Assembly: GCA_030248295.1 (NCBI GenBank)
Contig: JASANH010001652.1
Coordinates: forward strand, 682,001 to 746,000
DNA from: Mesodorylaimus sp. YZB2_4
Taxonomy: Eukaryota > Nematoda > Enoplea > Dorylaimida > Dorylaimidae
Length of the DNA: 64,000 nt
Direction: 5' to 3'
In this document: piece after piece, positions 703 through 61,448 of the stretch
Layout: each line of letters opens with the position of its first letter
Numbering within the stretch: the first letter of the stretch is position 1
Made by a program: the position numbers and the translations under genes
Notes under the pieces: model-generated
What the model was told of the DNA's origin: nothing
What the model saw: the letters and a program-made list of their open reading frames with translations, nothing else
The model's database searches: none

Positions 703-770
703 CGCACAAACTAAATATAATTTCATAATTTCCCAGCCAAACTCGTTGACCGTCGGTTCCCCGCCTGAAC

Positions 771-24345: not shown

Positions 24346-24893
24346 CTTATTTGCACCAATTTGTTCAGGGAACCGGTCTGCCTCGACTAATTGTAAGTCA
24401 AGACAGTCACGACACCGAGCCCTGCGACTGGTTTGGGGCTGGCCTTGAGGGTTTTGCTTTTAACTACTCCATGAAGTTCCTGCGGCTCGAGCCTCCCTCC
24501 TGGCGACCCCTAGCTAGCCCCGGGGCAAGCCTGCCTGACTTCCTGAAAGGATATATCCGATGTCCATTTTCCTCTTGCTTCGATTTTGAGCGAGATATGA
24601 TGACCTATGCCCTGCTGCAACATCAAATCGGCAATAATTATAGCAGCTGATAGATTTATTTCATGGATTCGGCACAAAATTGACCACTTTAGAGCTAAGG
24701 TCTCCGTACATTAATGGAGAATTATCAGGAAACCAGGAACGGCCCCTATCAGCCTGCTTTCATTTAGGGACACGTACCCCTCCAAACATAGTCGATCTCG
24801 GCTCTTCCGGCCAGTTTCGTGCTGCTATGTCCTTTATCTCGCTAATAAAATGTGGTCTATTTCCTCAGCGTGCACTAAAAATGCCAAAATTTT

Positions 24894-24966
24894 CGAGCTT
24901 GGCAGGAGTCGAACCTGCAATCTTCTGATCCGTAGTCAGACGCGTTATCCATTGCGCCACAAGCCC
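24894..24966 (-). tRNA. tRNA-Arg(ACG)
   Basis: The minus strand folds as a standard 73-nt tRNA with no intron. The acceptor stem pairs GGGCTTG with CAAGCTC (one G-U), the discriminator is G, and the anticodon loop CTACGGA gives anticodon ACG. A-box TGGCGCAATGG and B-box GGTTCGACTCC are intact. A pol III terminator TTTT follows four bases after the discriminator. The inosine-modified anticodon would read CGU, CGC and CGA. Confidence 0.97.
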
Positions 24967-26105
24967 GCATATATGAGAGTCATAATAACCTATTTTAAGG
25001 GACGCATTGTTTATCTGTCCTACGTTGTGTGGCACTGACGGTGAGCCAGTGCATCCCCACCCTTTTTGAAAAGTGTATATTTTCCAATGTTTCTACGGTA
25101 TGCTAGAATTTGTTAGTACACTCACACCTTCATCGCTGCCATCAGTGGATCTGCTGGACCTAATTTATGTATACCTGAGCCTTTCTGGAAAGGATCCCTT
25201 CTTGCCGAATATCAGTGGAATTAAACCTTCTTTGCCAGTGCCCTGGGACTATTCCTCCACAGGACGCATAAAGGCTGCTAACTTTGATCTTGCAAAATGC
25301 AGCGTGTTCTTACGTAGGTTATGGCTTCTAATGCTCACTGCACGCCCAACTGTTGGCCATCTCCACTTTTGTACATGCAAGTCAACATGGGGTGTGTTCG
25401 TTTCGGCATTGGGTCGTGTTGTTGTCCCAAACACGCTCGCATTTGGCTCCGTCCTCATTCCCATCCCACCGGCATGTTTAGATAGCTCCATTCGTTGCTT
25501 AGATCACGCAAAACGCTCCCCATTGATCGTGAGAAGCCTTAGCGAGCGCATTACACGGCCAGCATTCAGGTGGAAGACAAGCCGCCCGCTCTGGCCAATA
25601 CGTTTCCACCATCAGGCCGTGACCAGTTTTAGGAATTGCATATTCATTCAGCCGCTGCCTACGATGAATGCGTCTAACTAGAATTTTCCACTTTTTTTCT
25701 TCCTCCACCGCTCTCATTTCGTCAAAACGTCTCCTGTCTCATGTATCGCCCGGCCCGGTTCATTTGCTGTCAGCAGTGACAAAACTACTTCGCCTGCCAA
25801 CTTCAGCCGACGCTAAAAGTCGAGCATTGCTAGATTCGAGGTGTGTACTCGACATTTTCTCTGCGCCTGTTCAACTTGAGCTTGATCCACCCCAGCCCGT
25901 CAGTAATACACGTGTGCAGGCCGCTCGCTTACGTCACCTCAAATTGGTTGCTACTTGCAAGCTGCCGCCTGAAACCTTGCGCCACGCTATACATTGGTTT
26001 CTTCCTACGCTTCCGACTACTGGCACAAGTGTTTATCACCAGTTGTCATATCATTGTGGCAAGGCAGACAATCGCCTGAATCTAAACTCGCCTCTTGGAT
26101 GCGTG
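24967..26105. other. Region between tRNA and MICU-like gene
   Basis: Overlapping open frames run through 25073-26105 on the plus strand. One is continuous with the first MICU exon, and an upstream in-frame ATG exists at 25668. The predicted sequence from 25668 to 26105 does not look like a mitochondrial protein or any family I know, so I treat it as 5' flank or UTR. Confidence 0.45.
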
Positions 26106-29100
26106 ATGTTGGCACATTCGAAATGCCGTATTTGGACTGCCCAATTTTGTCAAGTAATCGTAAGACGCGTATTGTCCTTCTCGGCCACTCATTCTGATGG
26201 AACTGATGGAAAAAGATTTAAAATCGCAGCTGTTGGACTTGGAATTAGTGGGAGTTTGGTAATTTATTATGGTCTCGAACGGGAAGAAATAAAGCCATTA
26301 AGTCTTGTAAAACGGGTCATTGGAGAAAAATTTAGTTTATACGCTGCAGCTACAGCCAAAAAAGTAAGTTGCTCTAAATTTTCTGTCCATCCATTCCCGC
26401 CACGATGAGCATCTCGCAGTCGAGTTTGAGGCCGTATTCCAAAAAACTTGCTGGAAAATAGTGAAATGTCCAGGAAAATTCTGCAAATACCGCCTCTGAT
26501 CGTGAGTCCCGATGAAACCGCCTCGCATAGAATGTGTATTAGAATCAATGAGACTGCATTTAACGCATATACTGTAGACGCATAGAATCAATGAGACAAC
26601 ATTTTACTCACCCATGAAAGACTGGCGTTTTCAGTCCAGCCTGGTTAAGGCGAGATATCGAGCTGACTCTGTGGCATGTTCATTAGAGAGCGAAACTGTA
26701 CTCGAAATGCCACACACATTCGCGTGGTGCGTAAAGTATAGTTTCAGGTCGTGTAAATTCAAATAGGAGCCCTGATCTGCGTTATACTTGACCACAGGCC
26801 ACCCTCTAAGATACCGCATGCACAACTCGATCATTCTACTTATTTTTTTCGCAGGATCGCATAAAACGTGTCAAGTACGCCACAGCTGTCGTCGGCGCCG
26901 CTGCTTCCGAAGCATTGTCCGTAGTTACTCCGACTCCCATATCGACCAGAGAAAAAAGGTTCTTGGAATTCGCTTCAGTCGAGTATCAGGGACAAGCTTT
27001 TATGACTGCGGCAGATTTCCTGGAAGCTGTCGTGCACGATTCACCAGCCGTTGAACGTAAGCAGAGGCCATTGTCTTCTAAGCTAGTGATTTATGGGTGA
27101 TATGTTTAAAGGTGTCGAAAGGCGATTACTGAGTGACGACGAAGCCAAGCAAATTGTGAACACACGTGGGAAGCCGACAAAGGATTACTTTAGATCTATG
27201 GGCGATGCTGGCTTGATATCTTACACAGAATACTTATTTCTGTTGTGCATTTTAACAAGTAAGAAAATCAAATAAATTAATCTGATAATGATAATTTTAT
27301 TTTCTAGAACCGCATGCGAATTTTCGTGTGGCATTCAATATGTTAGACGCTGATGGTAATCAGAGGGTCGATAAGAAAGAGTTCTTAGTGGTAAGTACTT
27401 TGGTATTGAGGCTGCAGAGGGTCTGAAGGGGCTCGATGAGTAGAATTCGTCGAACGAGGCGCCAGGTGGGCGTAATTGTGACACATCGTATGAGTAATGT
27501 CAAAACTAAGAATTGCAGGTCAGCTGCTGTGGCACCTTTGAGTTACTGGGACTTATGTGGTAGTTGGATATCATTGGTGCTCATATCTGAAACCATATTT
27601 TACGCAGCTTGCAAAGATTTCCACCAGAATTCATCATACGGCTGACCTGTTTCTTGTGCCAGACCCGATTGTGTTCGTCCAATGTACCTTCATTGGACCA
27701 GAAGTGCCGCATTCTTGAGGAGCTGCATCTTGGCCCAGCATGTGATTGCCATTCATTGGTGCATCTGTCTTGGCCGGCTTCTGCTTCCTTATCTGGGAGA
27801 GGGCCGTCGCTGCCGACTGTATCGGGCTGTACTACACGCTCTAAGTTTTCCTATGTTACTGTCACTCTAGCGGCAATGCGGCTACATTTCATAAGACAGA
27901 AAAAGATTTTTTTGTGCCCAGCGGCGATTTTTTATCCTGGTGCCTTCTATTTTAGATGGAAAGAATATTCGCGAACACCAAATTCAGTAAGAAATTATTG
28001 CAAGGGCGGCAATCTGAGAGAAGAGCCAACTCTGAAAACGGATCTGCAGCGTCTGTTGACGAGGTAAGAGATCGTTGTGGGCGAAGTTGTGTGAGTGCCT
28101 GTGCATGTGCTAATGAGACCGCCTGGATAAAATTTGATTTCTGCGTGAACTTATGATTTTATATGAGTGCACACTGCGATGCAATGCACATGGGCTGGAG
28201 CTCGCGAATGTGCATTGCATGCAGTTGTCTTTAAGCGAGAGACGTTCAAAACATCTGTTATCCCAGGCCAGTGCGAACGACAAATTTTGGGCACTCGTCA
28301 TTCCCTGTCCCTCCGACCGTCTCTTTGACTTTCCTCTTCCTTCCAACATTTGGCAACAGAACCATCTCAACCAATCTAACGCATCCCGACCTGTCGCCAG
28401 TCTCTGCATGCTCTGATGTTGCTGTTGTTTGATGTGTTCAGTGCATGCTCATTTTGTTTTGCTCTCCTGCCAGGTACCATCAACATCAGCATTGCATGAA
28501 CATCCCCACATTCCATTGATCGAAGTACGGTGGGCCAGTGATAACCTCCAATACAAAATAGAAATATTATAAAAGGGTTATTTTTTCAGAGAAACAAATT
28601 AACCGAAGAAGAGAAGCAATGCGATACAACGTTGATGAGGAGATTCTTTGGTCGCCGGGGAAGACATGTATTGACATACGAGGAATTCTACCAGTACCAC
28701 GCTTCAATTATTACCATGCCTTTTAGAAAAAATCAGGTTATAATTTCTAGATTTATGGTTGATCTGCAAAGGGAGATTTTGGAAATAGAATTCCATGAAT
28801 TCTCTCACGGACAGGATACGATCAAGGAGACTGATTTTGCCCGACTTCTACTGCGGTACGCCTTCGCTCATCGTGATCAGTACTTGGCTTATATGAAGAG
28901 GATTGAGGAGAAGATCAAGGACAACGTGGTAAGCCGTAGAACTTTTGTCGTCCTAATTATCTGACATCGTAATTCCTCAGGGGAGGGCCACTTATTTTAG
29001 GGACAAAAATCATCATGGGCGCGGGCTCGATTCTTACAGGACTCAAGTTTTTATTCCGTCTTTTTTGGTCCGTCAAATTTAACATAAGAACTCGAATTAC

Positions 29101-31138
29101 ATACCAGTTTTCTGATTCTGGCTGGGCGATTTCTGGGGGCACGCACCAAGTTTCAATGGACCTTTCTTGATTCTAGAGCAAAGCGAGGGGATGGCTTACT
29201 ATGGTCATGGTCAAGCTTACATACTTACCCTAGCAGCAGTAGTGTACATCGGCAGGATTGTCTTGGCGCCTCGCAAAAGAACTCAAATATGTCAGACACA
29301 GGCGGTGGGGGGGGGGGGGCAAGGGGGAAAGGAGAGATAGATACCGGAACCACGAACTAGCGAGTAACTCAGTGATGCGTCTTCAAGGACTAGGAAAATA
29401 CGTTTTTTGTCAAGTTTCGTTTGGGTGTTAAATTTGTAAAAATAAGACCATTTTCTCTTCAGTGATTGTGAGTGACCAGTTTTCGTAGCCATAATTTGTC
29501 CCACAGTGCCCCCTATCAGTACTTCTTCTCCATTTGATACTTGGAAGTTATAAAACTTGATTTATGGTACAGTTCCCGTTTATACAAAAAAAAACAGATT
29601 ATCATTGTGCATTTCAGGGTATTACATTTGACCAGTATCAACAGTTCTGCCTCTTCCTGACAAATCTTGACGACTTCGCCATGGCTGTCAAGTTGTACAC
29701 TTATCGTGATCTGCCTGTAACTCAAGGTAAGTCGCAGTAACAGTCCTGGGCGCATGGTAAAGCATAGTCTTGTCCCTGCCAGATACGCCATTGTGGGATT
29801 GTTGCAGTGTGATGTGCAGATATCCTCAGCTGACCACGTGGAGTGCCAGCCTCCGGCCTCGGGGCTTGACGTCGGCCTCACTCCATGTGCGCAGTTACCG
29901 GCGAGGGTTGGACTCGCGGTTGGGTGAATCATTTTGGTTGTCATGTGCCCCTTTACCGTCGAGTGCGCATACAGGCCTTTGGTGATAGTAAACCGGGAAC
30001 AGGGTCATTGATGTGATCAAAGTGCAGCAAAATTGAAAACCGTTCTTGCACCAAATCATCTGGTCAATTTTGTTCATAGGTGAATTCTCCAGAGCAGCTA
30101 AAGTATCAACGGGATTTGCGTTGGATGCTCACCTCGTGGACACTGTATTCCAGATCTTCGATATCAATGAGGACGGGCGACTGAGCTATGGAGAATTCAT
30201 AAGTGTCATGCGGGGGCGATTGAACAGAGGCGCTAAGGTAAGAAGCCCCTTTTTGATGGTCACATGTGTTGGCCAACAAACTCAACTCAGCGGCTGCTTG
30301 TGTTATAGCCGGGGCTGGGTTCGTAGCTGGTGTGGGATAGGGATTCTTCGGTTTTTGTTTCGATTCGACTCAACATTTTCTAAATGCCTTTTACCTGACC
30401 ATGTGGGCACCCCAGCAGGGAACAAAATGGCAGTATCCCATCCCTTTTTTGGGCTACCGTCACCACCTGCTGTCTTTTGTACCCCACCCCACTAGTGTTC
30501 GGCCGAGGCCTCGACGTCGAGGAAAAACGGCCGAGGTTCGAGGTTCACAAGCAAGATGCAATCAATAAGCTGTTTCCCAGTTTGAAGACTGGACGCACAA
30601 GTGTGCCCGTGCCTGGCACGCAAAAATTTGCGCAATTTAGCTGCTAGCTTAATTAAATCACTGTGTAGGACTGCTTCGTCCATATCCCTTGCCTTTTTAT
30701 GCCAGTGGGTGAGTTGTCTCTTGAAGATACAATCAGAAAAGGATGGAAATTCACACAAACTTGCAGGAAGCATTACAAATTTAAGTTAGGGACTGTTAGC
30801 AAAAACCTCGAGCATCGACCTCGACCTCGACCTAACCTCGACTGCCAACCCCGACCTCGACCTCGGGTCGAAAGAATCGGACCTCGACCTCGAAAAAAGT
30901 CATCCTCGGCCGAACACTACACCCCACTGCTTTTTTGATTCCTCAGGCCGCTGTGCCTGCGCCTGGCGGGACGACTTGTGTTGTGTTTTCAGCGAATCGG
31001 GCACCGAACCGAGTGGCAACAGTTCAAAAAGTGCGTACGGGAAGAACTAAGAAGATACTAGATTGGCTGTACGACGACATCGTACTTGATACCGTTACTC
31101 GCCCATTGGCAAAAGATAAACCCCGCCTTCCACTCTGA
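26106..31138 (+). CDS. MICU2/3-like mitochondrial calcium uptake regulator (10 exons)
   Basis: Family members are EF-hand proteins of the intermembrane space that gate the calcium uniporter. Exons: 26106-26363, 26855-27056, 27112-27258, 27308-27390, 27956-28063, 28590-28693, 28751-28928, 29618-29726, 30080-30237, 30947-31138. All phases join and give 512 residues. Visible are a basic mitochondrial presequence, a TM helix near 39-57, FASVEYQGQAFMTAADF and ISYTEYLFLLCIL (close to MICU3), EF-hand 1 D216-A-D-G-N-..-E227, the LTYEEFYQFMVDLQREILEI block, and EF-hand 2 D424-I-N-E-D-G-..-E435. Calcium ligands are intact in both hands. The TM helix and FASVEY block favour MICU3 over MICU1. Intron 6 is only 57 nt and in frame. 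An earlier in-frame ATG at 25668 would add 146 unconvincing residues. Confidence 0.92.
29845..29990 (+). repeat. SINE-like repeat of the TGCGCAGTTAC family (copy in MICU intron 8)
   Basis: It shares TGCGCAGTTAC, GGACTCGCGG, AATCATTTTG, GTCGAGTGCGCATA and TTTGGTGAT with 62975-63125, and more weakly with 48625-48745 and 62385-62490. The family head resembles a degraded tRNA with a B-box-like GTTGGACTCGC. Confidence 0.55.
30493..30919. mobile_element. hAT-like MITE inserted in the last MICU intron
   Basis: It is 427 bp with 16-bp perfect terminal inverted repeats TAGTGTTCGGCCGAGG and an exact 8-bp target duplication CACCCCAC on both sides (30485-30492 and 30920-30927). Subterminal arrays of CTCGAC words lie inside the right end and partly the left. 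No transposase is present. The right end lies only 27 bp from the start of the last MICU exon. Confidence 0.92.
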
Positions 31139-35792: not shown

Positions 35793-37693
35793 ATGAACGA
35801 TCCATGCTCAGAAATTCCTAGCACCGCGGTCAACTATGATGACTATCGACCAAATTCAGTCATTAGAACCGTGGCCAAAATGGACGAACCGTTTGTCTAC
35901 TCGTGCGTTTTCCCACACCCTAGTCTGGCTTGTACAAACGGGACTGGTATCAATTTTGAGATTTTCGAAATCGTTATGTCCACATTGGGATTGAATTACA
36001 CAGTGGAACAGGCAGATGAAGGGGAAACGGGATTTATTCGTGAAGGTATGCCTGTGGGCCAATAACAATACTACCCTCAGAAGGCACTACATTCCTTCTG
36101 GATGTTTTGAAGCGAAAGGCTGCAAACCTCTCACAGGTGGCATTCGACAGAAGCAGCAATGACAGCGCTATGTGAGCCCCCTGATCCCCTTATGGAGCTG
36201 TATGTGATCATTATCCATCACATTCACGTAACACTATGTCCACAGGCACTAGATGCCTGTGAGCTATACTGTACTAACCGCCAGATTCTATTTTAGGCAA
36301 GTGGCACGGCATGATCGGACAGCTACTTCGACACGAAGTGGACATGACAGCCACTTTGGTCTCCATCAACGAAGAGCGTCTTAGATGCGTCGATTTCAGT
36401 TCACCAGCCTCATTCTACTTTCGAGGGTTTCTCGTCCAACGTCCAAATGCCATGGACGCAGCTGCAGTGCCCACATTCTTGGCCACCCCGTTTTCACCCA
36501 CAGTCTGGGCCTGTTTCTCAGTTTCGTTGGTCGTCTACGTGTTTCTAGCATTCTTCGCTCGCCTGCTTCTCGACGCGCCAGGAGACATGCGTCCATTTAG
36601 ATACTTTCGCGACAGCGTTTTGGACGTCGTTCGCAGTCCGCTGGGACAAACGGAACCTAGACCATATTCGGACGCGCTTAGATTCACACTAAATTACTTG
36701 AACGTGCCAATGTTTTTTCTCATGAATTTCTACACGGCAGCCTTGACTGGCACTCTTATGTTCATGGCCAAAGCACCCGATCCATTCACAGGCTACGATG
36801 AACTGGCTCATTTGATTCATGACAAAAAGTTTACCATGGTCAGCACGGGCAGTATTGCCAAGTTCCTGCCCCCTTTGCCGAACGAGACTGTGGTAGAAAA
36901 TCATCCCGACACCATCATCCGGCGCGCATTCCCCTACAATCCGCCCGTAATGGTGGCCACTTTGGAACAAGCAGCTAAGGCCGTAGAAAAGAACAAAAGC
37001 TTGGTCTTCTGGGGGTCGTACAATCAGGTGTTAGAAGCGGCCTCCTATTCATGCGCATTGTACGTGATTGAAGATCGGTTCACTATGCCCACATGGCTCG
37101 CCTTCGCGTTCAGGAAGGGCGACCCACTGCAGGCCATCGTATCGAAGACCTTGTACACGGACACCTCGGTCGAGTCGTTCATGAAGCGCATGTACGTCAA
37201 GTACACAAGGCACAGACAGTGCCCAGATGACTTGAACGAGGACGACGCTTCTGGCACCTTCTTCCCCTTACGACTGGGCCACATGCAAGGCGCCTATTTC
37301 GTTTTACTCTACGGATTAGCCATAGCAACACCAGCTTTCCTAGCCGAGTACGTGGTGAGAAAAATGACAAAAAAGGTAAAGGCGCATAGGCAGTCTATCA
37401 TGATGACTTCACTAAGAAGTAGCAGCGTCAGTCAAACTACGAGTATTGGCATGCCCGTCAGAGCCAGAAGGACTCCCACTCCATTCCACGCGGACAGAGC
37501 ACAGAGTATCAAAGTGGAAGCAGCCAACACCGTGTCTCCGATTCCTAGAAGAGTGAATTCGAGCGAGCTGTACGGCAGGTCACGACTGGGCTTATCTGCA
37601 AATCATGCAACGAGCTTGAGCAGAGCAAGTACTGTCAGCGTCCACATGTCAACTCCGTCTCCGAAAAGATCGTATAGTTTTAGGGAAGCTTAA
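35793..37693 (+). CDS. Ionotropic-receptor-like / divergent ionotropic glutamate receptor, paralog 1 (2 exons)
   Basis: Exons are 35793-36045 and 36297-37693, joining in phase 1 to give 549 residues. The ligand-binding S1 half includes DEPFVYSCVF, an NGTGINFEIFEIVMSTLGL core and WHGMIGQLLRHEVDM. It continues to EERLRCVDFSSP, matching the glutamate-receptor SER..DFS.P motif. TM1 is near 152-176, the M3 helix with FYTAALTGTLM (compare SYTANLAAFL) near 220-242, then S2 and a last TM near 409-439. The segment between M1 and M3 is polar (SPLGQTEPRPY) and lacks a hydrophobic pore loop. No N-terminal signal peptide is seen from the chosen ATG, so an upstream exon is possible. It is probably a chemosensory or neuronal receptor; the ligand is unknown. 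Its paralog is at 59876-61448. Confidence 0.87.
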
Positions 37694-44500: not shown

Positions 44501-47491
44501 GCGAAAACGACGCCTGCTGGCCTCATCGCGTCTTCGAGGGCGCCTCCTTTTCCGTCACAAGGTACCAACTTTTCCGCAGTTCCATCAACCTGGCTGTCTT
44601 ATCTCGGCTGTTCTCATTACTCTCGCAGGTATTGGCAAAACTAAGCTTGTCTAGCTCGAGTCGCTTTTCGTTTCCGTATTTTTATTGACAGCACAGCCGC
44701 TCCAACATCCGAGACCAATTGCCGTTAGGACTCGTACGTTTACCCATTGGCTCGTCTTGATAATACACAAGCTGTAAAGAGGGTCTCGAGTCAGCGAATG
44801 TATTCGACTAGTCGTGCGAACTGATCAAAGTTGACAAACTGCGCGCGCCTGCTCCAGGTATACTCACTCAGCTTTGACTGAACGCAACCTGACGCGTGTA
44901 GGCGTTCATACAATTACAGTAGACCTCGATGGGCGCCTGGTGCCGGGTTGACAAATGGTACTGATCAGTCAAATTGGTCTAGAAACACTTTTGCCGAATT
45001 TTGTATCTCTAGGCGTTTTCGTTTTGATGAGGTAAATAAAAACTACTATCGAGCTGCACAGCGAAAGTGCAGACTTCCAGGCGGCAGCTGCGCTGAACTA
45101 GCAAGACAAAACGACGTCAGAGACTGAATGTCATCAGCAATAAAACGTAAAGTGCTTGCAAGTTGGTACACAGCTTTATGACTCTGGGAGGGAACAATAA
45201 GCAAACAGAATGGGGAGGGGTAACGATAAGCTGCTGGCCATGTTGCATAAACATTGCTCCAACACCAGGCTGGAACAACAAATTGCAAAATGCGAACGGA
45301 CCATTCTAAAACGAACAATTCTTTTTCAAGTGATTTACAGATTCTCCCCGTTAGGATTTAATGCAATACAAGTGTGTCTTGGATGCAATGTCTCCCTTGT
45401 CTCCAATTTCATGCATGCCTATTTTGGAAGTGTCCTTTTTCAAAGCAGGCCTAAAGTAAAGAGTGACGAATTTTTTCTTTTTATGCGGATTTTGTCGCAA
45501 AACTTGAGTGCATTATTCCACTTCAGAATAGCGTGCTTTCTTGGCCGAATTATGTACTCATATTGTAAAAATCTGACAATCGAAGTTTTGGCTGAGATTA
45601 ATGCAATTTAAGTTCCAAAAGATATTTTACGTAATCTTATTGGTTTTGATGCCTCTTCTCTGAATTGATGCATTATTTGTAAAGCTAAAGCACAAAGGAT
45701 CAAGAAGCATAGGACCTACTGTACCTTTACAGGGGCTAGATCAAAAATCTATGTGCCATTAAAATTGATTTTATTCTGTTCTGCTTTTCTGACTGTTTCT
45801 CACTGGCTGGAAGTCATGGATTCTACTCACCTTTACTTGGCTGCAGTCCAACCCTTTTTCAACTTCTCAGCGTTTTTCTTCGTCGCTTATTTCAGAGGCT
45901 GCTTTTTTCGAAAATCTCGTTGCGGAGTATTTTGGCTGATCTTCACGGAGCAAGCAGTGTTGGTTTTTCCCGCAATACATCTATCCGACGTTGGTCATGC
46001 TGATTTTCATGCATGGGCACTAACGAAGGTTTTATGTTCGTTTAAGTTCTTTTATAGAATCTATCCGATGAGACACGGGGAGGCTGACGGCAGTTGTTGC
46101 GAAGCTATCTCTGGAAAAGTTTTCCAGGCGAATTTGAGAAGGGTAGTGTGCCGGAAGAGTTGGCGAAAACAGACTTCTTTGCATCTAGTTTTCGCTTTGA
46201 TGTACGACCGACGCGGATGTATGACGGTAGCTGAGCGACGTCGGGCGATCAGTTAAACCATCAAAGACAAACGCGCTTTTTCGTCACTAAATGGCATCTA
46301 AAAGAAGAAGAAGATTGTAGAAATGAGCTTTAGGCCCATTCGCCTCAAGATTTTGAATAGTTGGCCATTTGAGAAAGGAGACAAGAAACTGAGCCCCAGA
46401 CTCACTCATAAATAATACCAGCCTGTGTTAGGGGAAGACGAGCTGGAGAAAGTTTTGTTTTAGAAATCATAAAGGCACGAGTTCACCCAAAGACAAGGTT
46501 ACGTAAGCAGTGCGCTCTAAAGAAACGGCTATGAAAAATGTTTACTGTACTCGTAAAGCATATTCTGAAGTTGCATTTTAAAGAAACCCTAAATTTATGC
46601 GTCTGAGAAAAGGGTCAATGGTGATCGTTAAGATTTATAAATTGTTGCATAAATTTTACTGGAGTTCTGGAAAAACTAAAACAAAAACTCACATGTCTGA
46701 CTACATTTTGTTTTGGTAATGGGTTCCTTTTTCATATTTTAGGTGTACTGGAATTCTTGTCAGTGGCATTTGGTTTGGTCAGTATTAAAGGCAAGGAAAG
46801 TAATCGCTATTTGTGTATGAATAGGCGTGGACGCCTTTATGGATCGGTAAGTGAGTGCTGTCTTCAAGATTATGATTAGATATATCAGCGCACAGTAGGT
46901 ACAGTGCGACTAAAGCAACCCCCGTGTAAGCAGAGCTCTGCAAATGTCTTCTCATATGAGAGATGTAAGCCTAATCGTGAGGGTACTAAACTCAATCACA
47001 GAATGCGACTGTATTTTCAGGAAACGCACAGCGAAGAGTGCATATTTATGGAAAAAATGTTGGAGAATTACTATAATACGTATACATCCTGTAAGTACGG
47101 TCGAGGTCGCCACAGTAAAAAGAAATGGTATGTTGCGCTAAATAAACGCGGTCGACCGAAACGTGGTAATCAATCAAAGAAGAAGCAAAAATTCACTCAA
47201 TTTCTTGTTCTACATTTGGACGATGAGGAATATAAATGGACACGTCGGAAATTCGTTTTCGCTAATCGTGATACTTATTTTGGCATAAATAGTTTCACGC
47301 AAGAATGGCGCCGAAGGCAAACTCCTTGGGAGCGAATTCGGACCATGCAACATCAACGTTCTGCATCCTCTTCATCTTCTGTTATCAATATTCCACTAAT
47401 CGCTCCCGGCAGCAGTACATCGACTCCCAACCGTCGCGCGAGAGTTCGGCTTCGGAGGCCCGATTCGTCGAATTCGCCTGAGAGAACCTGA
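41505..47491 (+). CDS. Fibroblast growth factor, FGF9/16/20 (LET-756) type (3 exons)
   Basis: A secreted ligand for an FGF receptor tyrosine kinase. Coding exons are 41505-42063, 46743-46846 and 47021-47491 (phases 1 and 0), giving 377 residues. The beta-trefoil core starts at about residue 159: LYCRSGYHLQIHNDGKVNGT, then GVLEFLSVAFGLVSIKG, YLCMNRRGRLYGS, ETHSEECIFMEKMLENYYNT and KKWYVALNKRGRPKRG, ending QKFTQFL. The exon breaks match those of vertebrate FGFs. As in FGF9 relatives there is no cleavable signal peptide; the N-terminus is Gly/Ser/Pro-rich. A basic and serine-rich C-terminal tail of about 90 residues (RRARVRLRRPDSS) recalls LET-756, where such a tail acts in the nucleus. An in-frame stop at 41418 rules out a start further upstream in this exon. 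Intron 1 is 4.7 kb and holds only unsupported open frames. Confidence 0.93.
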
Positions 47492-48762: not shown

Positions 48763-49537
48763 CGCTGACCTAAGAGTGAAAGTGACTAGGATCCTGCAAA
48801 GGGTCAGGATTGCTGCACTGGTGCATATCTGTCATATACAAGTATGCACTCCTAGCGCCACACCCTAATTTTCCTCGGCCCCTCTTAGAAGCTCGAAATA
48901 CTCGTTCATCTTTCCTTCTACCTTGTTTCAAAGTTTTCTAACTGATGATGCTCTATGTATACTGCAGTTTCCCAGAAATATCCACTCAAATCCAGCTTTT
49001 ATAGCATCCTTTTATCCCTATTTTTTAAAATATTTTTGACGCTGCTTTTATAGGAGCTTGGGCAGATAATCATGAAGCCAATCAGTCAGTCGTGTCCCAC
49101 CACAAGGGGTCATGAAGTCCCCCACGGATTGCGCCATAGCGACAAAAAACCAGGTTTTTTTGAAGTAAACAGCCATTTTCAAATCTCAAAAACGCTTCAA
49201 TATCTTTTTATCGATATATTGGCTGTCAAAACATATAATGTTTTCATATAACACGTTTTCTTTGAGGCGTCCTATGCGGTACGTGGAGGGCGTGTATATT
49301 CCCATAAAAAAAACTGGTTATACTGTAGTAAAAACTAGCCTCGAAATAGCAGACATGAACTGCTTCGCTAAAAACAGTCACACAATGCGTAAGGATCCAA
49401 ATTTGCAGCGCTGTCATGAATATCAAAAAAAATTAACAAGAGCGAATACCCGTACCCGTCGCCTCTTACCCAAACCCGTACCCATACCCGCCGGGTACGG
49501 GTATGGGTACGGGTATGGGTACCCATGCAGGACTCTG

Positions 49538-50463: not shown

Positions 50464-53400
50464 ATGAAGTTGACCGTCTTCCTTATCGCCGTCCTGTTCA
50501 CCTGGTGCGCTGTAGCTGAAGAATCAGAGAATCGAACGCGTGCCAAGCGCCTTCAAGCCCAGCCAGCTTCTCAGCCCGCAAGGCCAGCTCCTGCTCCTGC
50601 TAGACCGGCTCCTGCTCCTGCTAGACCGGCTCCCGCTCCTGCTAGACCGGCTCCTGCTCCAGCTAGACCGGCTCCTGCTCCAGCTAGACCGGCTCCTGCC
50701 CCAGCTAGACCGGCTCCTGCTCCAGCTAGACCGGCTCCTGCTCCAGCTAAACCGGCTCCAGCTCCAGCTAAACCGGCTCCAGCTCCAGCTAAACCGGCTC
50801 CTGCTCCAGCTAAACCGGCTCCTGCTCCAGCTAGACCGGCTCCTGCTCCAGCTAAACCGGCTCCTGCTCCAGCTAGACCGGCTCCTGCTCCAGCTAAACC
50901 GGCTCCTGCTCCAGCTAGACCGGCTCCTGCTCCAGCTAGACCGGCTCCTGCTCAAGCAAAACCGGCTCCTGCTCCAGCAAAACCAGCTCCAGCCCCCGCC
51001 AGACCAGCTCAGGCTCCTAACAACACCCCCAATAAAGCTCCTAACCAAGTTAAACCAGCTGTGGTGCTGCCATCTCGCGTAGGTGCTGCAGGCAAAGGAC
51101 CTCAAAATGTACTCAAGGTGGTGAAGCCAGGAATAAAAAAAGGCCAACGCGTTCCCGTTAAGGGCAAACCCACCAAAGGTAAACCAGTCAAAGGAAGGCC
51201 CGGCAGACCACCTGTACGGAAGCCAATTCGCCCAAAGGTTCCTGGTTTGGTGGTTAACGCTCGCGTTCAAGTCGGTCCGCGTGGATTTGGCATTGTTCAT
51301 CGTCGTAACGTCCGTTTGCCAGTCTGGGCTAACAAGGCCATAATCATCTTGCCAGCAGGCGCTCGCCAACGACCTGCTGTTCAAAAGCCCGGTGTCGTGA
51401 AGACAGGCTCCAAATTGTACTACGTGGTCCGCATTGTTGAAGTCCAATCGCAGCCGCGCTTGGAACAGCTCGTTCAACACCTACTCGATATCCTGGTTCA
51501 AAAACGACTAATCAATGTTCGACTCGGCGCCTCGATTCATCAGACTTTTGGTAAGTGCAGTTGGCTTTGAAGGAAAAGGTCTCTAAAAGGATGTCGTTGT
51601 ATGTATGTTAGGCATCGCAACGGTCGGTCGCTTCGCTAAACAACCTGTTCAAAAACTTCAGTCCAAGAATTCCAAAACACTGGTTATAAAAGGTTTTATC
51701 AAGGCACGCACCCGATTCACTCACAGCCTTAAACAGCTCATAGATCGTCGCGATGGTCAACCAGCCAAGGTCAGAGTGCTGGCTCGGCTACTATTGGAAC
51801 TGCTGCTGGATAATGAGCATTTCAGCATTCCTAGGGCTATACCAGCAGCCGCCCAATTTGGTAAGTCGTGGTAGTCAATGTAGGGATCGAAATGGAAAAT
51901 GTTACAGTACTTTAAATGTAATTCTTTTTCTGATCATACACGTTTCAGGCGTCAAAATCACAATACTGGCCAAGGCTCGCGATGTCAGTGTAGTGCACAA
52001 ACCTGGTCTGGCTCGATTCATAAGTATCGTGAAAATCACACGTGGCACGCCTCAGAACTTGAACAGATTTGTCGTGCGACTTGTAAACATCTTGGTTAAA
52101 CGCAGAGTATTTACTGTTGACATTGCTCGCAGACTTTTCCCTACTTTCTGTGAGTTCAGGGTCAAGATTTCAAAAAAGATAACACTAACTTCTCAGCTTT
52201 TAGCAATCCCCGGAGAAGGACAATACAAAGGCAACTACCAACCGTTGACTACCCAGGAAGTGACCACACTTGTCATCAAAGGTCGTGCTCTGCCTCGCCG
52301 CCGATTCTTGCATGAATTAGTGTCGTTGGTGGGCACTATACGCGGAAAGACACCTCAACAACGGTCGGAAGAATTCGTAAAACTGTTGGCGCAATTGACA
52401 CTGGGATCTGGAGTCAGAACGGCTAAGCAGATCGAGAGACTGGCATGTAAACGATTTGGTAAGATCCAAATTCAAGGTAGTGCGTATTTTATGGATAGAT
52501 ACAGTGAATTCTTGCAATTCAGATCTACACCTAACAATTATTCGAGCGGTACCTAATTTTACGGATCATCCTTGGTTGCGTCCTGCCAAACCAGTCCGTC
52601 CAGCACCAGTTCACAGTTTGATCTACTTCCACAACGTCATCTTCAACAACCCAGTCCCAAAAGACAAGGCTCCAGCTTACATAATCAAACTACTCGAACT
52701 ATTGATTCAGCGCAGAATTATTGAAATAAATATTGCTCGAATCTTGTTGATCACCTTCGGTAAGTGGGCATATGGGATAAAAGGGCCTTCAGATGTGCGG
52801 TATACTATCGCTCGCTCAAACCAGGAATTCGGGTATCTGGACAATTCGCACCAACGCCAGATGTCAAGCCATGGACTCCAGAAACCCTGAACAGCTTCAA
52901 GCTCACCGGCAATCCATTCGCAAAAGGCAAACTGCTAAAAATAATCTTGCAATTCTTGCTCAACAAAGAACGGCCTGATGAAGAAGAAATTGGTTGCCTT
53001 GTCTCTCGAATTCTTCTCGAGTTAAGTTTAGACAACGACGTAGTCAACACAAAAATTGCGAATGAAATAGCCCAAACATTTGGTAAGTTATACTTTTTAA
53101 GAAAATTCCTAAAAGCGGCTTAATATTTTTTACTTTTTATACACTAGGCATCAAAGTGACAGTACAAAAACTGCCAGCTCCACAGCCTGAACCAAACAAA
53201 TCTGCGGAGAAGGACGATGAAGACGAAAATGATCAGGATAATGAGGACGACGAAGAAAACAATCAAGCAAATACACATCCAAACAAACCAGGACAGCCAC
53301 AGCGACCAAATCAACAAGCACAGCCACAACAACCCAATCAACCTGCACAGCCACAACAACCCAATCAACCTGCACAGCCACAACAACCCAATCAACCTGC

Positions 53401-56400
53401 ACAGCCACTACAGCCCAATCAACCTGCACAGCCACAACAGCCCAATCAACCTGCACAGCCACAACAGCTCAATCAACCAGCACAGCCACTACAGCCCAAT
53501 CAACCTGCACAGCCACAACAGCCCAATCAACCTGCACAGCCACAACAACCCAATCAACCTGCACAGCCACAACAACCCAATCAACCTGCACAGCCACTAC
53601 AGCCCAATCAACCTGCACAGCCACAACAGCCAAATCAACCTGCACAGCCACAACAGCCCAATCAACCTGCACAGCCACAACAGCCCAATCAACCAGCACA
53701 GCCAGGTGTTCAGGAAGGAGAAGACGCCGCGAAGGTGCCAAGAACTCGTGAAGATGATCAGGCAGAAGCACCTGGGCAGCCAGAAAACCCTGCACTCCCA
53801 CAACAACCTGAGAAGCCTGCATTCCCGCAACAACCTTGGCAGCCTGCGTTCCCGCAACAACCAGATCAACCTGCATTCCCACAACAACCAGACCAGCCTG
53901 CGTTCCCACAACAACCAGACCAACCTGCATTCCCACAACAACCTGGGCAGCCTGCATTCCCACAACAACCTGAGCAGCCTGCATTCCCACAACAACCAGA
54001 CCAACCTGCATTCCCACAACAACCTGGGCAGCCTGCATTCCCACAACAACCTGGGCAGCCAGCATTCCCACAACAAGCAGACCAACCTGCATTCCCACAA
54101 CAACCTGGGCAGCCAGCATTCCCACAACAAGCAGACCAACCAGCATTCCCACAACAACCTGAGCAGCCAGCATTCCCACAACAAGCAGACCAACCTGCAT
54201 TCCCACAACAACCTGGGCAGCCAGCATTCCCACAACAAGCAGACCAACCTGCATTCCCACAACAACCTGAGCAGCCTGCATTCCCACAACAACCAGACCA
54301 ACCTGCATTCCCACAACAACCTGGGCAGCCAGCATTCCCACAACAACCAGACCAACCTGCATTCCCACAACAACCTGGGCAGCCAGCATTCCCACAACAA
54401 GCAGACCAATCTGCATTCCCACAACAACCTGAGCAGCCTGCATTCCCACAACAACCAGACCAACCTGCATTCCCACAACAACCTGGGCAGCCAGCATTCC
54501 CACAACAACCTGTGCAGCCAGCATTCCCACAACAACCTGGGCAGCCAGCATTCCCACAACAAGCAGACCAACCTGCATTCCCACAACAACCTGGGCAGCC
54601 AGCATTCCCACAACAACCAGACCAACCTGCATTCCCACAACAACCTGGGCAGCCAGCATTCCCACAACAAGCAGACCAACCTGCATTCCCACAACAACCT
54701 GGGCAGCCAGCATTCCCACAACAAGCAGACCAATCTGCATTCCCACAACAACCTGGGCAGCCAGCATTCCCACAACAAGCAGACCAACCTGCATTCCCAC
54801 AACAACCTGGGCAGCCAGCATTCCCACAACAAGCAGACCAACCTGCATTCCCACAACAACCTGGGCAGCCAGCATTCCCACAACAAGCAGACCAACCTGC
54901 ATTCCCACAACAACCTGGGCAGCCAGCATTCCCACAACAAGCAGACCAACCTGCATTCCCACAACAACCTGGGCAGCCAGCATTCCCACAACAAGCAGAC
55001 CAACCTGCATTCCCACAACAACCTGGGCAGCCAGCATTCCCACAACAACCAGACCAATCTGCATTCCCACAACAACCTGGGCAGCCAGCATTCCCACAAC
55101 AAGCAGACCAACCTGCATTCCCACAACAACCTGGGCAGCCAGCATTCCCACAACAAGCAGACCAACCTGCATTCCCACAACAACCTGAGCAGCCAGCATT
55201 CCCACAACAAGCAGACCAATCTGCATTCCCACAACAACCTGGGCAGCCAGCATTCCCACAACAAGCAGACCAATCTGCATTCCCACAACAACCCAGCCGC
55301 TTCCCACACAAACCAACCTGCATTCCCACAACAACCTGTGCAGCCAGCATTCCCACAACAAGCAGACCAACCTGCATTCCCACAACAACCTGGGCAGCCA
55401 GCATTCCCACAACAAGCAGACCAACCTGCATTCCCACAACAACCTGGGCAGCCAGCATTCCCACAACAAGCAGACCAACCTGCATTCCCACAACAACCTG
55501 GGCAGCCAGCATTCCCACAACAAGCAGACCAACCTGCATTCCCACAACAACCTGGGCAGCCAGCATTCCCACAACAAGCAGACCAACCTGCATTCCCACA
55601 ACAACCTGGGCAGCCAGCATTCCCACAACAAGCAGACCAACCTGCATTCCCACAACAACCTGAGCAGCCTGCATTCCCACAACAACCAGACCAACCTGCA
55701 TTCCCACAACAACCTGAGCAGCCTGCATTCCCACAACAACCAGACCAACCTGCATTCCCACAACAACCAGACCAACCTGCATTCCCACAACAACCAGACC
55801 AACCTGCATTCCCACAACAACCTGGGCAGCCAGCATTCCCACAACAAGCAGACCAACCTGCATTCCCACAACAACCTGAGCAGCCTGCATTCCCACAACA
55901 ACCTGACAAACCTGGAGCACAAGAGCCTGCTTTCCCACAGCCTCCAGGCCAACCAGACCAACCTGCAGTCGAGCCACAACAGTCTCAGCCAAACCAGCCA
56001 GTTTTGCCAGTACAAAATGAACAAGAGGGAGCCAATGAAGAAGACAACAGCAGTGAAGAAGTGAAGGGTGATAGCAGTGAGAGCGAAGAGGAGCAGCCTG
56101 AGCAGGCAACTTCAGTGGCTGCAACGACAGTTAAACCAGGGCAAGCTGAGCCAAATCCTTCGAACATGGATCAGTCTGCCTCGTTGATACCAAACCCAGA
56201 TGAAGGCGCGCAGGAAGAAAATGACGACGAGGAGGAAGACAAAGAAGATGCAGAAAACGCCAAACCAGTCAGGGTTATCAGTTCAGAAGTGTCGATCGGG
56301 AGCCAGTCGCCGGAAAAGCGCAATCCATTTATTATCTATATCCTCACTTTGCTGATCGAGAAGGAAATCATTGACGTTAATGTTGCCAGCTGTATTTTAT

Positions 56401-57962
56401 TTAGCTTTGGTAAGTTTTCACCCTCAAATTTTTTGAGCTAGTTCAAGTTATTCCAACTTTCAGGCATCGATGGTGGCGCCCAGTTCCCCAGTAGACCAAA
56501 CCAAACACCAGTCAATGAGGATACGATCGATGACTTGAATATTGATGGCACTGAAAACGCCAAAGAGAAATTCACTCAGGCTTTGATCGAGATCAGCAAG
56601 CAGTCGAATAACCCTGACCGTCTGAACATCTTACTCACCATACTTTTGGAATTCGCCATCGACAACTTGATTATTGTCCAAAATGATGCTACCCAGCTAG
56701 CCGCAACTTATGGTAGGTCGAGTATTATCCGCTGATTATCACACTTTACTTAGCGTGATTCTAGGCTTTACGATTACTATTGAAATCAAGAAAGTGCATG
56801 TCGAAGTCGATCATAATATCAATCTTGGTCAAACAGGCAGTTTTGGTACCAAATACCTTAGCGAAGTGGAGATCGGATATTCGATTGCCGATGACAACCT
56901 GCCCTTCGCTGACAATGTTCTCTCAGCCCTCGTCGAAAACAAACTGATCGATGAAGAACTCGCCCTGAACTTGCTCTTCACCTTTGGTCTGTCTACATTG
57001 GGTTCCAATGCATGACACTGATTAATTGATCAGTTTACTGTAGGTTTCAGTGGTACATCGAAGGTCGGAATCATCAAATTGGGGAAGAAGATTAGTGCAG
57101 GTGGTGTGAGCAGTCTTCAAGTCGTCAGCGATGCTGATGCCAAGAAAAAGTTCTTTGATCATCTGATACAACTTCTGGCTTCTAACACACCTGATCAAGT
57201 TGGATTGATCGATGCGCTCTTGGAATTCGCCCTTGACAATGCCGTACTGGACATCCAGGGTGCTGGACTGCTGGCTGTCACATACGGTGAGGCGTATTGC
57301 CCGTATCCGTACATGTTACTTCGAAAAACATTCTTTTTAGGCTACAGTATCTCGATCAAGGTCGTTAAAATCAGCAGGCAACAAACAAGTCAAATTTTGC
57401 CACAGCTCACTGGTACAAAACGCGTTAGTGAAGTTACCATTACTGGCTGCTATGCTGACGATCTTGGACCTTTCTTGAACCAACTGGCGGGCAACTTGGC
57501 AAATGCAAATTTGCTGGCATCAGCATCTTCTCAAAATATCTTTAGCACCTTTGGTAAAGTTACTGCGCTCTCCCTCACACAGAATTCTGGTAATGGTTAG
57601 CTGTGTAATTACAGACGTGACTGGTGCTAGCGGCAAGGCGATCGCGATTGGTGACATCCCCAAGCTTGACGTCAAGGGTGATTCGGACGCGAAGGCTAAA
57701 TTCTTATCAGCGCTGAGCGCTCTGGCTAATGCTAAGCAAGCTGCTGGAAATGAGGAGTTCAGCTTGACTGGTTTGCTGAAAGTGTATTTGGAGCTGTTGT
57801 TGGATAACCAAGGAATCCAAGCCCAAGATGCGGCGCAGCTGGCTGTCACATATGGTAAGTGTGCTCTTTGCACTGAATATTCAGCGTAAAACGTAATGTT
57901 CGAGTTCTCTTTTAGGTGTCAGCGTTTCTATCCAAGAGACCTCAATAACATTGGGTAGCTGA
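50464..57962 (+). CDS. Secreted modular protein with six alternating A/B modules and proline-rich arrays (13 exons)
   Basis: Family not recognised. Exons: 50464-51550, 51612-51860, 51949-52149, 52204-52458, 52523-52759, 52825-53082, 53148-56409, 56464-56712, 56765-56986, 57044-57286, 57341-57553, 57615-57854, 57916-57962. Every intron is phase 1 (52-93 nt). Exons 1-12 each end in a TFG/TYG-like tripeptide split by the intron (QFG, RFG and SFG occur; exon 3 ends PTF plus a serine), and most following exons start G-(I/V/F/Y). Odd exons end with an A motif such as LLELLIQRRIIEINIARILL. Even exons carry a B motif such as LLEFALDNAVLDIQGAGLLAVTYG, usually led by KF(L/F/T)..L. The start is a signal peptide (MKLTVFLIAVLFTWCAVA), NRT glycosylation site and RAKR furin-like site. 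Exons 1 and 7 carry proline-rich arrays, and an acidic tract follows in exon 7. Total is about 2250 residues, but exon 7 has a frame break near 55290. A structural, adhesive or gland role is only a guess. Confidence 0.85.
50581..51010 (+). repeat. 21-bp coding tandem repeat (PAPAPAR/K)
   Basis: About twenty copies of a 21-nt unit encode PAPAPAR or PAPAPAK in exon 1 of the modular gene. The array lies between the signal peptide and a basic Gly/Lys/Pro stretch, ahead of the A motif. Copies differ mainly at third positions and at the R/K codon. Confidence 0.92.
53310..53704 (+). repeat. 27-bp coding tandem repeat (QQPNQPAQP)
   Basis: About fourteen or fifteen copies encode a 9-residue unit QQPNQPAQP in exon 7, after an Asp/Glu-rich stretch. 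Some copies read LQP in place of QQP. Confidence 0.92.
53810..55910 (+). repeat. 27/54-bp coding tandem repeat (QPAFPQQPD type)
   Basis: Roughly 75 copies of a 27-nt unit encode QPAFPQQPx, organised mostly as 54-nt pairs alternating PGQ and ADQ. The DNA is free of stops in several frames on both strands, so spurious open frames of 750-1070 codons overlap here. An interruption near 55285-55325 changes the frame. Confidence 0.93.
55285..55325 (+). other. Frame break inside the exon 7 array
   Basis: After QSAFPQQP the unit reads CCCAGCCGCTTCCCACACAA and rejoins the repeat 11 nt short of a full unit. The frame coming from exon 6 reads QPAFPQQ up to here. Only the +1-shifted frame gives QPAFPQQ and the A motif afterwards. 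Exon 7 is 3262 nt, one nt out of phase, consistent with this single event. It may be an assembly error, a true mutation or an unseen intron. Confidence 0.85.
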
Positions 57963-58046: not shown

Positions 58047-58052
58047 AATAAA
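58047..58052 (+). other. Polyadenylation signal AATAAA of the modular gene
   Basis: AATAAA lies 85 bp after the TGA that ends exon 13. Confidence 0.6.
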
Positions 58053-59875: not shown

Positions 59876-61448
59876 TTACGCCATGGCGCCCGGAGTCCTT
59901 GAAATGACAAAATTTGACATGTTGCTCCCCCTACGTGTGCTGAATTTACCATGCATATTTGGCGATAAATTATTCGAATCACATAAAAAACTAACATCGA
60001 CACTGGCACTCTTTGCTGTCCTTCTTTGACGTAAGGACAGTGATCGGAGTCTTGGTGGTTGAGGCGTTGACGCTCTGCTCGATTTTGACAATACGCGATT
60101 CACTAACTTGCAAATATGATTTGAGAAATATTCTAATAGAAAGATTGGAATTGCAGCCAGAAATCCAAAACATAATAATAGATAGCCGTATTGTAACTGG
60201 TGTAATCCGAGTGCAAAAAATTTTGGTTTTCGAACCACTTCATCGTCACATTCACGTTTTTTCAAATATCTTCTGTATGAACTTTTCAAAAATCTATCCA
60301 CAGTAACACTATCATAGAGCGCTTGGGAAACTCTGACCATAAGTGGATTATCTTTTCGAAGTGCAAATGCGAACCAAGTGGGAAATGTATCCTTATCTTC
60401 GATAATCTTCGTTCTACATGAGAACGCCGATGCGTGCATCAATTGCTGGTACGAGCCTCTAAGAACCAAGGACCTGTTATTGGCCACCATATCGACAGCT
60501 TCGGATATGCTCGAGGCAAGAATGGGTGGATTCCAAGCCGAGGCCAATTTGATCATGTCTTCGGGATCTGTGGAATTGGGGTTCGGAAAAGAGGAAAGCT
60601 TGAGCACGTTACTATATTTTACAAGTGTGTATTTGTTGTTGTGAACTAATTTGGCCAATTCGTGCACCCCATCGAACGGATCATCAGGTTGGCCCAAAAT
60701 CATCAAACTGCCCGTTAGGTAAGCTGTATAAAAATTCATAAGAATGAAAATCGGTACGTTTAGATAATTCAAGGTGAGTCTTAGAGGGGTGATATAGGGC
60801 CATGGTTCCATTTGGCTGAGTGGATTTCGAATCACATCGATAACACTATCGCTCAGGTATTGCCAAGTATCGCGTCGTTGTTTTGAGACAGCGAGCATGC
60901 GCGCACCAAAAATAAGGAATACATAGATGACTAAAACTGAGAGAAAACATAACCAAACCAAGGGGGTGAACGTGGTGGCGAGAAACCACGGGGATACTGT
61001 ATCCTCGTTGGGGTCGGGCTGCTTGATCAGGAATGCTCGAACGTAGTATGTCGCTGGGGCGCTGAAAGTGATGTTGTTCATGCTAGAATCGGGTTCCATG
61101 GGCAATAGGCTGGCTGACATGTCGATTTCTCCTCGTTGGAGTTGACCAATTAACCCGTGCCAGGTGCCTGGAAAATACACGCGATTCTACCTGCGTTAAA
61201 ACTGATTGTCACCATCCTAATACCACAAGCCAACGATCGTACTCACCATTTTTATCCTGATACCCACTATCGTTCTCTTCAGCTGGCACCAATTTATACT
61301 CAAGACCCGCAGTGTCCATGACAGCTTGGAACAGTTCAAAATTCACTCCAGTCCCATTGACACAGTTTGCAAGAGTTTGTTCAAAAACACAAGGAAATAG
61401 AAATGGTTCGTCGATTTTTGCGCCAGCGATGACTGTTCGTTCGTTCAT
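59876..61448 (-). CDS. Ionotropic-receptor-like / divergent ionotropic glutamate receptor, paralog 2 (2 exons)
   Basis: Exons are 61448-61247 and 61167-59876, phase 1, 497 residues. The intron position and phase are the same as in the gene at 35793-37693, and the same landmarks occur: DEPFLFPCVF, NGTGVNFELFQAVMDTAGL, GTWHGLIGQLQRGEIDM, FYTAYLTGSLMI. It differs at the ligand-binding motif, where the paralog has EERLRCVDFSSP and this one has DSSMNNITFSAP, so the glutamate-contacting arginine is absent. The M1-M3 link (NPLSQMEPWPY) is again polar. It probably binds another ligand or serves as an auxiliary subunit. The start MNERT has no signal peptide, so a 5' exon may be missing. Confidence 0.87.

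Follow-up and report, generated by a model that had tools for sequence, protein, structure and literature searches.

A gene at positions 50464-57962 on the plus strand of a 64,000-nucleotide stretch from the nematode Mesodorylaimus sp. YZB2_4 (contig JASANH010001652.1, positions 682,001 to 746,000 of the forward strand), hereafter called the window, carries twelve short modules of two kinds, A and B, in strict alternation. With its relatives in the same genome it appears to represent an all-helical family of class 1-1 modules, i.e. modules flanked by phase-1 introns, in which a strictly alternating A-B pair is present once, three, six or twelve times among the secreted proteins of a single animal lineage. 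The six-pair genes would encode a charge-assembled polymer of a basic and an acidic block, with slippage-prone linkers as tunable spacers. Taken as a whole, this description is tentative, with doubt slightly ahead of belief.

Exon layout and modules of the gene in the window

As read from the sequence, the gene extends from an ATG at 50464 to a stop codon ending at 57962 and consists of 13 exons. All 12 introns are of the GT-AG type, 52-88 nt long and in phase 1, and the codons they split encode Gly (9/12), Asp (2/12) or Ser (1/12). The length is a multiple of three in 10 of the 11 internal exons, exon 7 being the exception. Each of exons 1 to 12 carries one module at its 3' end, A and B alternating, and in this gene the alternation by class was beyond chance (permutation p = 0.0028). 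An earlier note on this DNA had given the same coordinates, alternation and intron phase, all of which were borne out. Its statement that nearly every exon ends in a TFG- or TYG-like tripeptide held with exceptions, as QF, RF, SF and non-Gly ends also exist, and the DN that it gave for the B motif is found in five of the six B modules, exon 4 having GS instead. The low-complexity linkers of exons 1 and 7 and a frame break in exon 7 were not mentioned in it.

Exon 1 (50464-51550) consists largely of the signal peptide and a PAPA linker. The signal peptide-like start, MKLTVFLIAVLFTWCAVA (50464-50517, its end set by eye), is followed by R-A-K-R, a furin-type motif (50539-50550), by a basic PAPA(R/K) linker encoded by 20.5 copies of a 21-nt tandem repeat (50587-51017) and, at the 3' end of the exon (about 51376-51550), by module A1. 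Modules B1, A2, B2, A3 and B3 are located in exons 2 (51612-51860), 3 (51949-52149), 4 (52204-52458), 5 (52523-52759) and 6 (52825-53082), respectively, B2 being the most divergent of the B modules. Exon 7 (53148-56409; 3262 nt) is mostly P/Q repeat. It has an A-type first strand, an acidic start, P/Q-rich low-complexity linkers encoded by about 2.5 kb of 27/54-nt repeats, and module A4 at its 3' end (about 56268-56409). One of the linker repeats has a period of 27/54/81 nt (QPNQPAQPQ, 53286-53704) and the other comprises 39.5 copies with a period of 54 nt (PAFPQQ, 53792-55914). Modules B4, A5, B5, A6 and B6 follow in exons 8 (56464-56712), 9 (56765-56986), 10 (57044-57286), 11 (57341-57553) and 12 (57615-57854). 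The A exons downstream of a B (n = 5) open with a strand-like stretch, e.g. YSISIKVVKI, and exon 13 (57916-57962; 14 codons and the stop) is nothing but such a stretch, VSVSIQETSITLGS, resembling the first strand of an A exon. We infer that the strand opening the next exon may complete the preceding B module. An AATAAA is found 85 nt 3' of the stop (58047-58052).

The consensus of the module profile spans 71 residues. L-x-I-x-G lies at its centre, one helix contains A-x-x-x-F-x-x-x-L, the second ends with D-N and the last with A-x-x-L-A-x-T-F, the helices being assigned according to the model of exon 12. This exon was predicted to form three helices (residues 22-42, 49-62 and 68-77 of 78 modelled), with the twelve modules of the window as the alignment, at a mean predicted local distance difference test score (pLDDT) of 81.5 and a predicted template modelling score (pTM) of 0.64; the remaining four models scored 68-79. 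The earlier note had suggested predicting the structure of an A-B pair. The model of exons 10-11, in which the in-frame 54-nt intron was translated as well, was poor, with a mean pLDDT of 55.9, and was not used.

The proposal in the earlier note that the family is undescribed was supported, as profile, sequence and fold searches found no relative of the modules in Pfam, NCBIfam or PDB sequences and no convincing match among the solved structures in PDB. A clear similarity of A or B to a described domain family, which the note had named as evidence to the contrary, was not seen in these libraries, nor was the module family described in a small sample of the literature, searched by titles and the starts of abstracts.

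Relatives in the same genome and growth of the array

Searches of the same genome identified L057 (reverse strand), L058 and L059, which are close paralogues on contig C19 and all have modules 1-12 in the same order as the gene in the window. L058 and L059 share 99.4 % identity over 7.2 kb at a distance of about 15 kb from each other; either they arose by tandem duplication very recently or one of them is an artefact of the assembly. Searched singly, the internal module exons 2-6 and 8-12 matched each paralogue from end to end or with no more than a few residues missing. In each paralogue, all 10 module exons checked have AG and GT at the phase-1 positions, and in each of the four close genes all 10 internal exons other than exon 7 have a length divisible by three. 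With exon 7 outside the comparison, internal exon lengths differ from those in the window by at most one or two codons. The symmetric phase-1 module exons in A-B alternation, described earlier for the gene in the window, were thus confirmed in it and in the three paralogues. Signal peptide-like starts similar to that of exon 1 are present in L057, L058, L059 and C2, and the furin-type motif reads RAKR, REKR and RSKR at residues 26, 23 and 21 in the window gene, L057 and L058, respectively. By eye, the C-terminal tails of L057, L058 and L059 are alike and similar to exon 13.

The linkers are grossly different between paralogues while the modules are kept, and both L057 linkers are of other composition. 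The exon-7 linker of L058 contains an extra possible phase-1 intron (by eye), without which its exon 7 is not open throughout. Selection on the modules is purifying on average. Over 883 aligned codons of the window gene and L057, the proportion of synonymous differences (pS) was 0.738 and that of nonsynonymous differences (pN) 0.169 (pN/pS 0.229), and pN/pS was 0.377 over 879 codons aligned with L058. In a tree of 71 modules, comprising those of the window gene, L057 and L058 and 35 distant modules (L059 left out), modules of the same position from the three genes clustered together at 11 of the 12 positions, the exception, position 11, being scattered; the twelve-module array therefore predates the duplications that gave rise to the close genes.

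The distant modules were found with a profile of the B modules in searches that covered fetched loci. The first pass yielded 32 further modules of at least 14 bits (best reversed decoy 6.0, best opposite-strand match 9.2), and after iteration there were 35 modules of 39.7-75.2 bits (best decoy 5.2, best opposite-strand match 4.7), these scores being inflated since the hits had entered the profile. They are distributed over contigs C630 (23), C27 (5), C2 (3), C101 (2) and C28 (2). Three short A modules on C2 were identified with an A profile and the first A module of C630 by reading its first exon. One module on C126 scored 38.2 bits, and fragment matches on C89, C213, C910 and C123 were at E values of 2-10 only.

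In genes with a readable start, the layout consists of a signal peptide-like start, a variable stretch, A and then B. Such starts, judged by eye, are present in the gene in the window, in L057, L058 and L059 and on C28, C101, C2, C27 and C630, in agreement with the earlier suggestion that the protein is secreted, which the hydrophobic count of the starts also favours. In the stretches read, mainly low-complexity linkers were seen by eye beside the modules. The number of A-B pairs is one on C28 and on C101, three on C2, six in each of the four close genes and twelve on C630. On C27, an A-B pair after a start is followed 2.6 kb on by B-A-B, in what may be one gene or two. The exon ends on C630, C2 and C27 were sought as phase-1 sites only and so provide no independent test of phase 1. 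The three-pair gene on C2 (L062) seems to run on as an open stretch beyond the usual tail, after the sixth module.

Judged by their sequences, A and B are related and still form two classes. A profile made from the 35 distant modules alone scored 18 of 18 B modules from the window gene, L057 and L058 at 25-50 bits, and the same profile scored 16 of 18 A modules at 8.5-22.5 bits, the best of 180 shuffles reaching 7.4. The separation of A and B in the earlier note thus holds for classes, but not for two unrelated motifs. Under the shuffle level were exon 11 of the window gene (1.2 bits) and of L058 (0.4 bits), and A6 is assigned to the family by its location, by the borders of its exon and by its similarity between paralogues. 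The A modules of the gene in the window and of C2 appear to be B modules lacking the first helix. Modules within one gene are strongly divergent, and similarity within classes exceeded that between classes, at p = 0.0002 in C630 (24 modules; the floor for 5000 shuffles) and at permutation p values of 0.0026-0.0030 in each of three 12-module genes. In C630, T or S stands at the penultimate position in 10 of 11 A modules vs none of 12 B modules (Fisher p = 1e-5), a feature picked post hoc, with the first A omitted and with ends that depend on the donors chosen.

Duplication as a two-exon A-B pair, as had been proposed in the earlier note, is supported mainly by the copy numbers and the alternation. 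In C630, the similarity between A modules also tracks that of the Bs following them (r = 0.43, p = 0.0026); B-A pairing is correlated as well (r = 0.37, p = 0.019), and the test fails to separate A-B from B-A. Support for the pair from the six-pair genes is weak, with p values of 0.12, 0.046 and 0.21 for A-B pairing and one of six pairing tests below 0.05.

Proposed function and its alternatives

The gene is proposed to encode a secreted extracellular structural protein, of a family with a multiplied two-exon A-B unit, which would assemble through its module arrays. This function is inferred, and it is about as probable as not. It is favoured by the twelve-module layout shared by four genes, the low pN/pS, the signal peptide-like starts, the R-X-K-R motif in three genes, the retention of modules beside changing linkers and the scarcity of Cys in the modules. 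The signal peptide would be removed and a short propeptide then cut off at the R-X-K-R site. The helical modules may act as multivalent association domains, and the low-complexity linkers as flexible spacers free to change in length and composition. In the six-pair genes, the basic N-terminal half would attract the acidic C-terminal half between molecules, and the outcome might be a head-to-tail fibre, gel or condensate in an outer matrix (cuticle, eggshell) or in a gland secretion.

The net charges of modules 1-6 and 7-12 are +42 and -18 in the window gene, +46 and -12 in L057 and +44 and -16 in L058. In the same three genes, the isoelectric point (pI) is 10.9, 11.5 and 11.0 for modules 1-6 and 4.6, 4.9 and 4.6 for modules 7-12. 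In the gene in the window, the exon-1 linker likewise has a pI of 12.0 and the exon-7 linker one of 4.1. First exons rich in P+Q are found also on C28 (0.41) and C101 (0.51). An analogy is the pharyngeal cuticle of C. elegans, described as being built by secreted proteins of low complexity, peaking with those rich in P and Q (PMC9629831).

Several observations weigh against the structural function and its mechanism. The C630 array is without a charge split, its first 12 and last 11 scored modules summing to +1 and +8, and the P+Q fraction is low on C27 (0.06), C2 (0.17) and C630 (0.19). An exact R-X-K-R was not found in the five distant genes read, C101 having RRLNKR, and the poor model of the A-B pair does not give the packing of the modules. 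As C630 lacks the split and the linkers are not all P/Q-rich, charge pairing would therefore be special to the six-pair genes, and there shared descent alone could be the cause of the split having been kept.

Apart from the structural protein, a silk- or glue-like gland secretion, in which helical domains store a repetitive low-complexity protein and trigger its assembly as in spidroins, is unlikely but deserves some weight. Helical domains are indeed joined to long low-complexity repeats, and the charge split could be switchable by pH or salt. However, no spidroin was among the Pfam and PDB hits, the modules make up the main folded mass instead of one domain per end, and the exon-7 linker of L057 is short.

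The most serious rival is provided by the nematode polyprotein allergens (NPAs), on whose example the protein would be a tandem polyprotein of carrier units, cut into small helical binders of lipids or other ligands; we consider this a little less probable again than a silk or glue. An apparently secreted array of small helical units would fit, as NPAs are described as secreted precursors made of helical units in tandem (PMC3079579). The cutting motif of NPAs, K/R-X-K/R-R, is, however, absent from all 36 modules of the window gene, L057 and L058; a single distant module of the 35 contains it, at residue 17 of its 74, and by eye it is missing from the 8 directly joined junctions in each of the three genes. 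Cys residues are few, the module arrays of the window gene, L057 and L058, of about 880 residues, having 4, 2 and 1, respectively, whereas a conserved disulphide is reported for NPA units (PMC3079579). The units here are without a Pfam or PDB match, lie on separate exons and are widely different in sequence.

A multidomain recognition protein (immune or adhesive), with diverse modules for different partners and a pair number varying as in lectin or Ig arrays, is improbable. Such a protein would account for modules that diverge strongly within a gene and yet group between the three genes at 11 of 12 positions, but linkers of hundreds of residues and a charge split would be unusual for arrays of this kind, and the gene-wide pN/pS indicates selection that is purifying on average.

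The PAFPQQ reading of exon 7 changes frame at 55286-55324, where one repeat unit is 11 nt short and two repeat words are spaced 34 nt apart instead of 45 nt; as assembled, the start is out of frame with modules A4 to B6. We attribute the break to misassembly of a long repeat, although the sequence alone is no proof, because the small differences in the odd unit are clustered, constraint is kept downstream and the short counterpart of exon 7 in L057 is open from end to end. That the gene is a pseudogene, the frame change removing modules A4 to B6, would explain the short unit and an exon 7 that is not a multiple of three, but is very improbable, as the break sits within the 39.5-copy 54-nt repeat, the several small differences clustered in the odd unit resemble those expected of unpolished long reads, pN/pS against L057 is similar in exons 7-12 (0.13-0.35) and exons 1-6 (0.15-0.27), and the splice sites 3' of the break are all intact.

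Neighbouring genes and comparison with known systems

The gene is flanked by two ionotropic-receptor-like frames at 36278-37693 (+) and 59876-61186 (-), with weak to moderate matches to ligand-gated ion channels, the second below the curated cut-off. Upstream of it, an FGF domain is encoded in one open frame of 203 codons (46880-47491, +), and at about 49470-49530, approximately 1 kb upstream, there is a degenerate GGGTAC/GGGTAT tandem stretch, a near-palindrome. The window also contains a single open frame of 944 codons (750-3584, +) for a Patched-type sterol-sensing protein, one of 409 codons (18796-20025, -) for a fatty-acid elongase of the ELO family and a tRNA-Arg (ACG) at 24893-24967 (-). 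The frame at 30037-30495 (+) matches EF-hand models and that at 28545-28964 (+) none; the two resemble parts of a mitochondrial calcium uptake protein. Searches of the same genome with GATGGGTTTT x3, with TTAGG x5 and with the nematode spliced leader SL1 gave 0 matches, as did a CAHS fragment, without a positive control. PF00379 had 0 matches, a result that is no proof of absence, and PF01060 had 27, all over the cut-off.

Phase-1 (class 1-1) modules are described as standard exon-shuffling units of animal extracellular proteins (PMC8001218). As in Ig, FN3 and other modules of this class, the modules presented here have phase-1 flanks, occur in a protein of secreted type and are multiplied in tandem, and the module exons are a multiple of three in length (exon 7 of the window gene excepted); the split codons here are mostly Gly. 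The same source describes the class 1-1 modules in widest use as mainly beta and the mainly-alpha fraction as negligible, whereas here the modules are predicted to be all-helical and the repeat unit consists of two unlike exons.

The APPG/PQN and IDPA-C cuticle proteins of nematodes are secreted, have low-complexity stretches rich in P and Q, as do the linkers of the apparently secreted protein in the window, and are thought to assemble by phase separation (PMC9629831). They are described there as largely disordered, whereas here helical modules are conserved and the low-complexity parts look spacer-like. Nematode polyprotein allergens of the ABA-1 type also form a secreted tandem array of helical units (PMC3079579), in contrast to which the modules here are without the cutting motif (36/36), have few Cys residues and lie on separate phase-1 exons. 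Spidroins, too, are secreted and join helical domains to long low-complexity repeats (PMC9237525); the N-terminal spidroin domain is, however, described as having five helices and standing at one end, whereas here a three-helix module occurs in many copies, and the libraries searched gave no sequence match and no convincing fold match.

Domain arrays are reported to grow often by several domains at once, two being the commonest number overall, while for exon-shuffled arrays the addition of one domain at a time has been suggested (PMC1553488). The pair unit found here would be an exception to the latter suggestion as given in that source. The growth mode is thus known in kind, and the helical family, the pairwise alternation and the protein layout are without a match in the libraries searched. 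As arrays of 1, 3, 6 and 12 pairs occur in one genome, the way in which such an array grows can be followed directly. Much of the extracellular repertoire of animals arose from exon-shuffled phase-1 modules, of which the best-known are mostly beta, and if the charge-split array of helical modules assembles as proposed, it would add to these a new kind of protein material, in which constrained modules are combined with freely varying linkers.

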